Shown: positions 54,992 to 60,403 of the stretch, piece after piece
Layout: the number at the start of each line of letters is the position of its first letter
Numbering within the stretch: position 1 is the stretch's first letter
DNA from: Chloroflexota bacterium
Lineage (GTDB): Bacteria > Chloroflexota > Anaerolineae > UBA4142 > SHND01
DNA: 60,403 nt
Assembly: GCA_029778615.1 (NCBI GenBank)
Contig: JAKOPZ010000207.1
Location: forward strand, 1 to 60,403
Direction: 5' to 3'
Translations under genes and position numbers: made by a program
The notes under the pieces: model-generated
What the model saw: only the letters and a program-made list of their open reading frames with translations
What the model was told of the DNA's origin: nothing
The model's database searches: none

Positions 54992-55264
54992 AATAAAAAA
55001 ACCGCCCATCCCAAATTGGGACGAGCGGTCTACTCGCGGTTCCACCCAAATTATGCTTGCAAATTGGTTTTTAATTTGCAAACATCTCTTTGAAAAGCGA
55101 TAACGGCGCAACCGTGGCGCATTACTTTATGCACGTGCGCCATTGCTTGTGCAAATTTCCTCGCCATTCTCACCGGGGGTATTCATCAACTCGCTGATAA
55201 AAGAGCTCGCAGCCGATGGCTCTTTCTCGCTGAAATTGCGCGGTTGATTACTCGTCCGGCGGTC
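54992..55264 (-). promoter_or_regulatory. T-box riboswitch upstream of lysC
   Basis: The T-box bulge sequence GGGTGGAACCGCG lies at 55047-55035, directly followed by a terminator stem (ACCGCTCGTCCC with GGGATGGGCGGT) and T6. In stem I, AGTA (S-turn) and ATCAAC (55251-55242) pair with GTTGAT (55190-55185), and CGCCGG pairs below with CCGGTG. The internal-loop strand opposite AGTA reads GAATACCC, so the specifier is ACC (Thr) or TAC; Thr suits the pathway. The UGGA of the bulge would need a tRNA with U73. Confidence 0.9.
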
Positions 55265-55305
55265 TTGCAATCTGAAATCCAAAATCAGAAATCAAAAATT
55301 CAGAG

Positions 55306-55437: not shown

Positions 55438-57039
55438 TTACGACGGCGAGGGACTCGGAATTTCGATGTGCAGCACAAGTCCGCCGTTTGTTGGCGATTC
55501 AAATTGCATCGTGCCGCCGAGAAGCGCGACGCGTTCACTAATGTTGAGCAAACCGAAATGTTTGCGCGCGGAAAGGGTGGCGAGATTCGGCGCGGCGCGT
55601 GTGCCGCGTCCATCGTCCGCAATCCGCACGCGTAACGCGGCGGCTTCGGCGCGTTGGACTGTCACCCACGCGCGCTGCGCGGACGCGTGTTTGCGAATGT
55701 TGTTCAACCCTTCTTGCACGATGCGAAAAATCGAGAGCTCTATCGGTTCGGGCAAACGTCCGAGACGCGGGTCAATGTCGAGCGTGACGCTCACGCCGCT
55801 TTGTTCCGACCATTCTTGCGCGTACGAACTGATGGCAGATGCAAGTCCGTGCGCGTCAATCGAAGGCGGACGCAAGTCACTGCACACTTGGCGCAATTCG
55901 CTCACCACTTGACGAATGCCTTTGCGAATCGCGGCGAGTTCATCTTGCTGTGAGGTGTTGGGCGAATGACTTTCTGCTTCTTCTAAACGATAATTGAAAC
56001 TCAATAAATCTTGAATCACCTGGTCATGCAATTCACGCGCGATATGTTTGCGCTCTTGTTCGCGTTCGGTGAGCAAACGGCGATGCGCGTCTTGCAGCGC
56101 AATGTTCAAACGGTCTAACGCTTCGAGTTGGTCGCGTTGGCGTTCAATCAATTCGCGATTGAGTGAATCTTGCGCGGCGAGATTTTCGCGCAGCGTCGCT
56201 TGCGTGTTGCGTAATTCTTCGGCTTGCTGCTGCGCGGCGTGATAACTTTCGAGCGCCCAAATCACCGGCGTGACTTGTTCGTGATGCGTTGCGCCGACAA
56301 TCAATTCGACAATTTCGCGCGGCGTACAATCGGCGGTGCGGCGGTGCGCAATCGCGCGTCCTTCGTACAACACGAGCAAACGGTCGGTGATGGCAAAGAG
56401 ATGTTCCAAATTGTCGCTCGCAATAATAAACACAACGCCTTGCGCGGCGAGCGTTTTGACGCGCGCCAATAATTTTTTTTGTCGTTGGAATCCGAGTGCG
56501 CTGAGAGCATCGTCGAACATGACCAAGCGCGCGGCTTTGCACAAGACGCGCGCAATCGCCGTGACCTGACGCATTTCATCCGAAAGGTTCGGAATTTTTT
56601 CTTTGAGAAAATTGGGCGGCGCGTCGAGGTCTGCCAACACGGCGGACGCGCGCTGTGCCATCTGAAAATCATCAGGCACGCCAATTCGGGGGGGCCAGCT
56701 GATTTCCCAACCGAGCGCAATGTTTTGAAAGACGTTGAGATTTTCTGCGAAAGTTGGTTTGTGATGAACCAACTCGATGCCCAAACGCTGCGCGTCGGCG
56801 GGGCTGCCGAGATGCACCGTGCGACCATCAATTTGAATGTCGCCTGACGTGGGAAGATGGACACCCGCGAGCAATTGCAGCAAAGTGGACTTGCCCGCGC
56901 CCGGACGCCCGACGATGCCCAAAACTTCACCGGGGCGCAGAGAAAACGAAACGCCCTGCAACGCCGACAAACCGCCATAGCGTTTGGACAGGTTGACGGT
57001 CCGCAACAACGGGGGCGTCATGCGTGCGCTGTCTTGCAT
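55438..57039 (-). CDS. fusion of a degenerate CUT2-type ABC ATPase domain with a histidine kinase
   Basis: 533 aa. Residues 11-250 are the N-terminal half of a sugar-importer ATPase of the RbsA/XylG kind: Walker A GRPGAGKST (44-52) intact, but the Q-loop reads VHHKP, the signature LSDEM (152-156), Walker B MFDD (174-177) with Asp for the catalytic Glu, and the switch His is Asp209. ATP binding without normal turnover is likely. Residues 262-330 form a coiled coil. Then HisKA_3 with ELHDQ (phospho-acceptor His338) and a HATPase domain (N-box EGLNNIRKHA, DDGRG 475-479, FGLLNI). No membrane segment. It ends the xylFGH operon, 58 bp after the permease, so it probably reads transporter state and signals to an unseen LuxR-type regulator. 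Confidence 0.85.
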   Translation of the reverse strand: MQDSARMTPPLLRTVNLSKRYGGLSALQGVSFSLRPGEVLGIVGRPGAGKSTLLQLLAGVHLPTSGDIQIDGRTVHLGSPADAQRLGIELVHHKPTFAENLNVFQNIALGWEISWPPRIGVPDDFQMAQRASAVLADLDAPPNFLKEKIPNLSDEMRQVTAIARVLCKAARLVMFDDALSALGFQRQKKLLARVKTLAAQGVVFIIASDNLEHLFAITDRLLVLYEGRAIAHRRTADCTPREIVELIVGATHHEQVTPVIWALESYHAAQQQAEELRNTQATLRENLAAQDSLNRELIERQRDQLEALDRLNIALQDAHRRLLTEREQERKHIARELHDQVIQDLLSFNYRLEEAESHSPNTSQQDELAAIRKGIRQVVSELRQVCSDLRPPSIDAHGLASAISSYAQEWSEQSGVSVTLDIDPRLGRLPEPIELSIFRIVQEGLNNIRKHASAQRAWVTVQRAEAAALRVRIADDGRGTRAAPNLATLSARKHFGLLNISERVALLGGTMQFESPTNGGLVLHIEIPSPSPS

Positions 57040-57097: not shown

Positions 57098-58339
57098 TTA
57101 TTTCGCGCGATTGCGCGTCATGACATCAAAAATAACGGCAATGGCAAGCACCGCGCCGCGAATGACGTATTGATACGCAATGTCCATTTGCATCAAGTTC
57201 ATACCGTTGGTCAACGAGGTATAGACCAATGCGCCAATCAGCGAACCGATGATTGTGCCGACGCCGCCGGCTGCGGAAACGCCGCCGATGTACGCCGCCG
57301 CAATCGCGTCGAGCTCAAACAATGTTCCCGCCGTCGGTGTTGCCGAACGCAAACGCGACGCGAACAAAATTCCGGACAGTGACGCCAAAAAGCCCATCGA
57401 GGCAAAGACAATAAAAATAATGCGGCGCACATTGATACCGCTCAATTCTGCTGCTTCGGGATTTCCGCCGACCGCGTAAATGTGGCGTCCCAATACCGTC
57501 TGCGTTGTGATGAAATGATACACGCCCACCACAATCAACATGATGACAACCGTCCACGAAAGCCCGTTGTACCCCGCGAGAATCCATGTAATGCCCGCGA
57601 GAATCGCGGTCACAAACACCAACTTGAGCACAAACAAATTCATCGGCAGCACTTCAAAATTGTACGCCTGCTTTTTGCCGCGATTGCTGAATTCGCTCCA
57701 GATGTAAAAAATGATGGCAAGCACACCGAGCAGAATGGTGATGGTATGAACGCCGGGGGCGATGGGCAGAAAATCGGGCAGATAGCCATTGCCGATGGCG
57801 TTAAAAATCTCATCGGCGATGATGACGGTGCCGGTGCCGGCGAGAACGACGAGCAGCAAGCCGCGATAAATGAGCCAGCCCGCGAGCGAAGCGACAAATG
57901 ATGGGATGCCGAGACGCGCTATCGGATATGCTGTAATTAAACCGGCGATTGCGCCCAACACGAGCACCATCGGAATCACGAGCCAGACAGGCAGCCCATA
58001 TTTCGCCATCGCGATTGCGGCGAGCGCGCCGAGAAAACCGGAAAGGAAACCCACCGACAGGTCAATTTGTCGAATGATAATGACCAGTGTCATGCCGACG
58101 GCAAGGACTGCAATGTAACCGGTTTGATTGAGCAGATTGGCGATGTTGCGTGAGGAAAGAAAAAGCCCGTTTGTGGTGTAGGTGAAAAACGCCATAATCA
58201 AAAAGAGGGCGATAAACATCGCATAGTCGCGAATGTTTTCTTGCAGCACGCGGCGCAAACTTGCAAGAAAAGAAGGCGCGGCTTGGGTGCCACTAACGGG
58301 ACTGAGCGGACCTGCGTTTGGACTGTTGACTGCCGACAT
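57098..58339 (-). CDS. xylH: sugar ABC transporter permease (XylH/GguB-like)
   Basis: 413 aa from ATG 58339, preceded by GAGGAG. About ten to twelve hydrophobic segments. GMTLVIIIRQIDLSVGFLSGFLGA and HIYAVGGNPEAAELSGI are the CUT2 permease signatures, and the length (over 400 aa) is that of the XylH branch rather than RbsC. The sugar (xylose, arabinose/galactose type) is uncertain. Confidence 0.9.
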   Translation of the reverse strand: MSAVNSPNAGPLSPVSGTQAAPSFLASLRRVLQENIRDYAMFIALFLIMAFFTYTTNGLFLSSRNIANLLNQTGYIAVLAVGMTLVIIIRQIDLSVGFLSGFLGALAAIAMAKYGLPVWLVIPMVLVLGAIAGLITAYPIARLGIPSFVASLAGWLIYRGLLLVVLAGTGTVIIADEIFNAIGNGYLPDFLPIAPGVHTITILLGVLAIIFYIWSEFSNRGKKQAYNFEVLPMNLFVLKLVFVTAILAGITWILAGYNGLSWTVVIMLIVVGVYHFITTQTVLGRHIYAVGGNPEAAELSGINVRRIIFIVFASMGFLASLSGILFASRLRSATPTAGTLFELDAIAAAYIGGVSAAGGVGTIIGSLIGALVYTSLTNGMNLMQMDIAYQYVIRGAVLAIAVIFDVMTRNRAK

Positions 58340-58429
58340 GTCGTGACTCCTCAAAGAATCAATTCGTTTCCGCGTCTGCGCGGTTCATTCACTGCTCTGG
58401 CAAAGCGCGGATGAGTTACGTAAATAACG

Positions 58430-58507: not shown

Positions 58508-60028
58508 TCAGTTCGTAGCTAATGCCATGATTTTTTCTTGGGTCGCCTCTTGAATCGGCAGTTCGCCGGTGATGCGTCCTGCCGACACAATGTACACGCG
58601 GTCGCTCATGCCCAAAACTTCGGGGAGCTCGGACGAAATCATAATGATGCTCATGCCCTGCTCCACCAGTTTGTTCATGATGGAATAGATTTCGAATTTT
58701 GCGCCAACGTCAATGCCGCGTGTCGGTTCGTCCAGAATCAAGACATTCGGATTCACAAACAACCATTTTCCCAAACAAACTTTTTGCTGATTGCCGCCGC
58801 TGAGGTTGCTGACTTTTTGTTCGATGCTCGGCGTTTTGATATTGAGCGCGGTGCGATATTTTTCCGCGACCTGAATTTCCGCGTTTTCATTCACCACGCC
58901 GCGTTGCGCAATCGCGCGCAGGTTGGCGAGTGAGATGTTGTGCTTGACATCTTGAATCAAAATCAAGCCCGCTGCTTTGCGGTCTTCGGTGGAATAGGCA
59001 ACGCCATCCTGAATCGCATACTGCGGATGCGTGTAATTTGCTTTTTTGCCATGCACAAACATTTCGCCATTGACGCGATAGCGTTTGGCATTGCCAAACA
59101 GACTCAACGCCAACTCGGTCCGTCCCGAACCCATCAAACCGGCGAATCCCACAATCTCGCCCTTTTTCACATTAAAGTTCACATCGCGCAAAATCGTCCG
59201 CCCGAGTTGAGGGTCATAAGCGTTCCAGTCCTTGACTTCTAACACGATTTCGTTTGACGGTTTGCTTTCACGCACCGGATAGATATTGTCAATCTCGCGT
59301 CCGACCATATGCTTGATTAAAACCGTTTCCGTCACTTGACCCTTGTGTGCGTCCAATGTGATGACGGTTTGTCCATCGCGCAGTACGGTCACGCGGTCGG
59401 CGATGGCAATGACCTCTTTGAGCTTGTGCGAAATCATGATGCAGGTCACGCCGTGAACTTTCAAATCGCGAAGCAAGTGCAATAGATTTTCACTGTCGCT
59501 TTCGTTCAATGCCGAAGTCGGTTCATCGAGAATCAATACTTTAGTGTCGCGACTTAATGCTTTGGCAATTTCCACCAACTGTTGTTTGCCAACGCCGAGG
59601 TCTTTGACTTTGGCTTCGGGGTTCACGTCGAGCTTTACCTTGTCCAGAGCTTGACGCGCGCGTTTGATGGTCTCATTCCAATTGATGGTGAAACGATTTT
59701 TGATTTCATTTCCCAAAAAAATATTTTCGTACACTTTTAATTCGGGCACGAGCGCGAGTTCTTGATAGATGATGGCGATGCCCGCATGTTCGCTGTCACG
59801 GATGCTCGTAAATTTTTGCACCTGCCCTTCGAACAAGATATCGCCGCTGTAATCTCCGAACGGATACACACCACTCAGCACTTTCATCAATGTTGATTTC
59901 CCGGCGCCGTTCTCGCCCACCACACAATGTATCTCGCCTTTTTGAACTTGAAAGCTCACATCCTTGAGCGCTTTGACGCCCGGAAATGTTTTGGTGATAT
60001 TCCGCATTTCCAGAATCGGTGTGTCCAT
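58508..60028 (-). CDS. xylG: sugar ABC transporter ATPase, tandem domains (XylG/MglA type)
   Basis: 506 aa from ATG 60028 (GGAG 7 bases ahead; two upstream ATGs are less likely). Domain 1: GENGAGKST, GVGKQQLVEIAKALS, VLILDEPTSAL, MISHKL. Domain 2: the usual degenerate P-loop GLMGSGRTE, signature LSGGNQQKV, LILDEPTRGIDVG and SSELPE. Complete for its family, in contrast to the kinase-fused domain at 55438, which it resembles in the ATPase part. Confidence 0.93.
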   Translation of the reverse strand: MDTPILEMRNITKTFPGVKALKDVSFQVQKGEIHCVVGENGAGKSTLMKVLSGVYPFGDYSGDILFEGQVQKFTSIRDSEHAGIAIIYQELALVPELKVYENIFLGNEIKNRFTINWNETIKRARQALDKVKLDVNPEAKVKDLGVGKQQLVEIAKALSRDTKVLILDEPTSALNESDSENLLHLLRDLKVHGVTCIMISHKLKEVIAIADRVTVLRDGQTVITLDAHKGQVTETVLIKHMVGREIDNIYPVRESKPSNEIVLEVKDWNAYDPQLGRTILRDVNFNVKKGEIVGFAGLMGSGRTELALSLFGNAKRYRVNGEMFVHGKKANYTHPQYAIQDGVAYSTEDRKAAGLILIQDVKHNISLANLRAIAQRGVVNENAEIQVAEKYRTALNIKTPSIEQKVSNLSGGNQQKVCLGKWLFVNPNVLILDEPTRGIDVGAKFEIYSIMNKLVEQGMSIIMISSELPEVLGMSDRVYIVSAGRITGELPIQEATQEKIMALATN

Positions 60029-60047
60029 TGCCATACTCCACATGAGG

Positions 60048-60099: not shown

Positions 60100-60403
60100 T
60101 TATTGCAATCCCGTAAAATCACTCGCAGAATAATAACCCGAATCAATCAACGCTTGTTTGACATTGTCTTTGGTCACCGTCACAATCGCCGACGGTTTCG
60201 CCGGCACATCAATCTTGCCATTGTTGTAACTGGTGGTCTTTTCCGGTGTGCCGCCCGCGATGAACGCATTCGCCGCCGCCACCGCATCCGCCGCCAATGT
60301 CCGCACATCCTTGAACACGGTCATGGATTGTTTGCCGTCAATGATGTATTGCACCGATGCTTTTTCGGCATCCTGTCCCGTCACGAAATACTTGGTCACT
60401 TCC
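60100..60403 (-). CDS. xylF: sugar-binding protein XylF, C-terminal part (runs off the window)
   Basis: About 101 codons seen, the 5' end lying beyond 60403. KYFVTGQDAEKASVQYIIDGKQSMTVFKD and ADAVAAANAFIAGG are typical of the C-terminal lobe of D-xylose-binding proteins (periplasmic-binding fold type I), with TGQDAE in the hinge/sugar site. First gene of the xylFGH-kinase operon. Confidence 0.88.
   Translation of the reverse strand, partial: EVTKYFVTGQDAEKASVQYIIDGKQSMTVFKDVRTLAADAVAAANAFIAGGTPEKTTSYNNGKIDVPAKPSAIVTVTKDNVKQALIDSGYYSASDFTGLQ

Follow-up and report, generated by a model that had tools for sequence, protein, structure and literature searches.

Why should a histidine kinase carry the ATPase domain of a sugar importer, and be encoded within a sugar-uptake operon? 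The question is raised by one gene in the window, the whole 60,403-nucleotide stretch of Chloroflexota DNA analysed here (Table 1), whose product the initial annotation had described as an ABC ATPase joined through a coiled coil to HisKA_3 and HATPase domains. Pfam bears this order out, with ABC_tran at residues 27-179 (E 8e-27), HisKA_3 at 329-392 (2e-13) and HATPase_c at 435-529 (1e-8). Homologues begin near Met7, and translation likely starts at that residue (position 57021) rather than at 57039. Among curated proteins, the N-terminal half is closest to the CUT2 ATPases YtfR, AraG and XylG, and the C-terminal half to the NarL-class kinases MctS, LiaS and UhpB; no transmembrane stretch was found in the fusion protein. 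An AlphaFold2 model based on a 29-sequence alignment predicts the ABC nucleotide-binding domain (NBD) confidently (pLDDT near 90 for most residues), the hinge weakly (about 50) and the kinase core fairly confidently, and places long helices at residues 253-289 and 294-357; by Foldseek, the ABC part matches sugar-importer and other ABC ATPases. The protein is best explained, from its sequence, as a soluble histidine kinase that would use a catalytically disabled CUT2 importer ATPase as its sensor domain.

Table 1. Features of the window around the fusion gene, and arrangements of fusion loci in the family (SBP, sugar-binding protein).
Feature	Position in window or loci	Strand	Remarks
NBD-histidine kinase fusion	55438..57039	-	533 aa, one ORF without internal stop
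CUT2-type ABC ATPase domain (NBD)	56290..57021	-	about residues 7-250
Hinge and coiled coil	56064..56283	-	about residues 253-325; conserved hinge TPVIWALESY, residues 257-266
HisKA_3 dimerisation/phosphoacceptor domain	55864..56055	-	His338
HATPase_c catalytic domain	55453..55737	-	N-box N447, G1 DDGRG, G2 HFGL
xylH/gguB-like CUT2 permease	57098..58354	-	proposed docking partner; coupling helix GRHIYAVGGNPEAAELSGINV
xylG/gguA-like double ATPase	58508..60043	-	importer motor
ChvE/XylF-type sugar-binding protein, C-terminal end	60100..60403	-	100 aa; contig ends inside gene
Type A locus	window, L031, L042, L043, L045, L048		SBP-XylG-XylH-kinase
Type B locus	many loci		kinase adjoins regulator; beside, not inside, transporter operon
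Type C locus	L039, L046, L051, L060, L062, L124		SBP, single-domain ATPase, permease, kinase
Type D locus	L032, L033, L035, L061, L063, L100, L101, L102, L105, L107, L112		kinase and own permease, no further ATPase beside that permease

The fusion is the last gene of the operon ChvE/XylF-XylG-XylH-kinase, with gaps of 56, 153 and 58 bp, so that its description as the fourth gene after xylF, xylG and xylH holds, xylF being seen only by its C-terminal end. The operon is one for sugar uptake, as had been proposed, but not strictly for xylose, its nearest NCBIfam relatives being ChvE-GguA-GguB, which handle multiple monosaccharides. In related loci the SBP gene often encodes a tandem double ChvE-type protein (L049:10876-13041; L031:2670-4940), an internal repeat that is the probable cause of the assembly break at base 60403 of the window. 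On the other side of the fusion gene, a T-box leader (Rfam, 100 bits, above the gathering score) lies at 55014-55268 (-), upstream of aspartokinase/asd genes and between these and tRNA-Val(GAC).

A search for the same domain order, combined with an analysis of neighbouring genes, returned 52 near-full-length homologues across Chloroflexota, and CUT2 transporters do adjoin them, contrary to the case, named in the initial annotation as fatal to its proposal, of homologues that never lie beside such transporters. Full-length homologues are spread over the whole of Anaerolineae and extend to other families of Chloroflexota, with the fusion carried by 27 of 400 sampled genomes of the phylum, the window's own included, and they were seen only in Chloroflexota by a seed-based scan of all species genomes whose reach is limited to close relatives. 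A wider, "rhizobial" fusion suggested by tblastn matches (80% of the query) was rejected: of three matches inspected, the two with annotation are ordinary CUT2 ATPases and the third (H1) has none. In one homologue (L102:6654-10181, minus strand) the frame extends to 1175 aa, about 650 residues beyond the fusion without a stop or a family match; we discount a longer natural fusion here, the extra C-terminal part being probably a chance frame or the result of a lost stop. In the tree, the fusion NBDs group together in a single clade (100/98) related to single-domain CUT2 ATPases and to the N-terminal half of XylG, which rules out an origin from the C-terminal half.

How far the importer motor has decayed can be read from its motifs. 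Those listed in the initial annotation, an intact Walker A (GRPGAGKST), an LSDEM signature and Asp at the positions of the catalytic Glu (Asp177) and switch His (Asp209), are all present in the ORF, together with a further change that it had not listed, His93 for the Q-loop Gln. Compared with a functional CUT2 ATPase, the family has kept Walker A (Gly and Lys in 52/52) and the Walker B Asp (52/52) and has lost the glycine of the LSGGQ signature, with Gly155 replaced by Glu in all 52 sequences (LSxEQRQ), as well as the switch His, found in none of the 52 fusions as against 50 of 50 canonical ATPases. Loss of the catalytic Glu, true of the window, fails as a general or defining trait, since the position is variable (E27/D24/N1) and the Glu is gone from only about half of the family. 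The Q-loop Gln is kept in 47 of the 52, and the segment that follows it (N-I-F-L-G-x-E), which in importer NBDs faces the coupling helices of the permease, is the same as in canonical ATPases. Because the Walker motifs are kept while the signature glycine and switch His are lost, the NBD should bind ATP yet not hydrolyse it normally, and its docking face would have been preserved. Below it, the hinge that leads into the coiled coil hardly varies (T-P-x-I-W-A-x-E-x-Y), and the kinase half is intact throughout, with the phosphoacceptor His338 and the HATPase boxes (N447, D475/G477/G479 and G496) each present in 52/52.

Where the flanks are long enough, the kinase gene adjoins, in most loci, one for a REC-GerE-REC response regulator, a LuxR-type partner of the kind that goes with NarL-class kinases but of unusual order, REC-HTH(LuxR)-REC, with a second, C-terminal receiver that is conserved across the family (L031:1295-2347; L058:725-1786). 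The regulator is seemingly missing from the window because the contig ends inside the SBP gene. It lies on another contig of the same genome (G000:C278:725-1786, start about 725-734), is 91% identical to the L031 regulator and is divergent from an SBP N-terminus with a lipoprotein signal, and the full locus is likely to read RR <- -> SBP-xylG-xylH-NBD/kinase, as in L031. In one genus (L117-L123) the fusion lacks such neighbours, yet in each of the two genomes checked regulator and permease share a locus elsewhere.

From the fusion, its motif pattern, the operon and the regulator partner, all directly observed, we infer docking and signalling. Probably, a dimer of the ATPase-kinase would be docked beneath a CUT2 permease and inform the regulator of the loading of the binding protein. 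The kinase dimer would set two NBDs side by side, where they would engage the coupling helices of a dimeric CUT2 permease, which would be a dedicated one in some lineages and XylH itself in that of the window. With bound ATP and without normal turnover, the NBD pair would act as a switch; a sugar-loaded binding protein outside would shift the permease, the pair would open or close, and the hinge and coiled coil beneath would relay the movement to HisKA_3, altering kinase or phosphatase activity, upon which the REC-HTH-REC regulator would control the adjacent sugar-uptake genes. The body of an ABC importer would thus serve as receptor, with a kinase in the place of the motor. In known importers the C-terminus of the NBD points away from the membrane (as does, for example, the regulatory domain of MalK), so a kinase at that end is sterically sensible.

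Evidence for docking comes from the permeases. Gaps between genes in the fusion loci are mostly short, with frequent overlaps, and in the 11 type D loci the only ATPase domain adjoining the permease is that of the kinase. These have their own SBP in 10 of 11 cases (all but L061), most of them alongside a complete importer. The partner permeases belong to the BPD_transp_2 family, and in those of XylH type the cytoplasmic coupling helix reads GRHIYAVGGNPEAAELSGI. Among 41 permeases that adjoin a motor ATPase, 40 have GGN in this helix, as against 1 among the 11 with the kinase's as sole adjacent ATPase domain (Fisher p 7e-9, with rows that are not independent by descent, so that relatedness inflates the p-value). 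Nine of the 11 dedicated permeases have the helix rewritten from GGNxEAA to roughly GRDERAL (~GRYIYTLGRDERALxVAGV), and the other two, L033 and L035, mostly keep the canonical one. The change could partly reflect descent of a single permease clade, but a contrast within one genome, G025, is independent of the effect of relatedness on the p-value: here the permease most closely related to the dedicated one adjoins a XylG and keeps GGNE, whereas the kinase-paired permease has ASSERAL. In the 400-genome search, permeases scoring above 490 bits occurred only beside the fusion (6/6, all of them model members), and the next scored 344 bits. The idea that a decayed motor docks the kinase to a CUT2 permease has thus gained independent support, with the groove segment kept in the NBD and the coupling helix of the partner mostly altered. 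Docking "in place of a XylG subunit", as first phrased, is not supported, XylG being a fused double ATPase and the NBD kin to its N-terminal half or to single-domain ATPases; nor do these results bear out a sensing of flux as such. In five loci (L039, L046, L051, L060, L124), a single-domain ATPase replaces the double XylG in a CUT2 importer, with the fusion gene last.

The window is less straightforward. Elsewhere in its genome no dedicated permease was found at the level of the fusion-paired permeases of G098 and G025 (best other permease 234 bits, against 484-547 for those), so that XylH itself, the only candidate seen, would have to be the partner. Each of the two main clades of the kinase tree contains type D loci, and L032, the closest relative outside the window's genus, is of this type; the window may therefore descend, judging from these sequence relationships, from a type D ancestor that lost its dedicated pair. 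Certain facts tell against docking: XylG is intact in loci of the window type, and XylH would be shared or contested; many type B kinases lie beside rather than inside the transporter operon; and the window has His in place of the Q-loop Gln, the residue that normally provides coupling to the permease.

Some of the same facts would suit a soluble sensor of ATP or another nucleotide, responding to energy charge with no need of a permease and flanked by the genes that the kinase regulates. Such a sensor, which we consider unlikely, would account for the invariance of Walker A and the Walker B Asp with loss of the hydrolysis residues, for the family in which the fusion gene is unlinked from any permease, and for type B loci that are adjacent rather than co-operonic. 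It leaves unexplained, however, the SBP-permease pairs without any other adjoining ATPase, the altered coupling helix, and the retention of a regulator-permease locus after the kinase gene had moved. Improbable, too, is a throttle on transport, in which the fusion NBD would associate with XylH or XylG, as a subunit that regulates or competes, and the kinase would report occupancy; the NBD is indeed of importer type, and both the window and the type C loci have a canonical ATPase and permease in the same operon, but the 11 loci in which the kinase has a permease of its own, often with a complete importer next to it, argue for a separate receptor. That the join is a sequencing or assembly artefact, a pseudogene or a recent, functionless accident has a negligible chance of being true, for although the assembly is fragmented and the contig stops within an SBP gene whose counterparts in relatives are tandem repeats, 52 homologues, some from single-contig genomes, keep the join and share the conserved hinge and kinase boxes, and this conservation already refutes it.

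If the docked receptor kinase is real, it would offer a simple and genetically separable system for learning how a kinase reads the motion of a permease, as well as a direct example of a receptor that evolved from a transporter; a nutrient-sensing function is likely for this protein family found across Chloroflexota. It is an even call whether there is a class of "ABC receptor kinases", in which SBP and permease dimer are retained, the motor is replaced by an ATPase-kinase fusion, and the assembly signals instead of transporting.

What is known of substrate signalling from ABC transporter to kinase comes mostly from Bce- and Pst-type complexes, in which separate proteins are in contact. In ChvE-VirA and XylFII-LytS, the binding protein is a co-receptor that touches the periplasmic or membrane part of the kinase. 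As in these pairs, a ChvE/XylF-type sugar-binding protein would feed both uptake and a kinase, but the fusion has only a soluble ABC domain, with no periplasmic or membrane sensor part, and the permease would therefore have to relay the signal. With the CUT2 importers GguAB, XylGH and RbsAC it shares the origin of NBD, SBP and permease, and differs from them in the lost signature glycine and switch His and in the kinase that replaces the second ATPase half. With NarL/UhpB-class HisKA_3 kinases, such as MctS-MctR, it shares the kinase core and a NarL-type regulator, but has an ABC ATPase as sensor domain and a regulator with an extra C-terminal receiver. No description of the ATPase-kinase fusion was found in the open-access literature searched, where transporter-sensing kinases of the Bce type (PMC10314905, PMC6978683) and transceptors (PMC11109136) were found. 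In BceAB-BceS/BceR, the transporter-dependent kinase system of Firmicutes, an ABC transporter likewise provides the input to a histidine kinase by which the transporter's genes are controlled, but that kinase is a separate membrane protein bound to an FtsX-type exporter with a working ATPase (PMC10314905, PMC6978683). The fusion itself carries an importer-type ATPase domain and, having no membrane segment, is not an intramembrane-sensing kinase of the Bce type; its partner would be a CUT2 importer permease of the BPD_transp_2 family and not an FtsX-like exporter with a large extracellular domain. In receptors with an S-component fold, or transceptors, part of a transporter has likewise been re-used as the receptor of a histidine kinase (PMC11109136); there the kinase is fused to the substrate-binding membrane part, whereas here it is fused to the motor domain.
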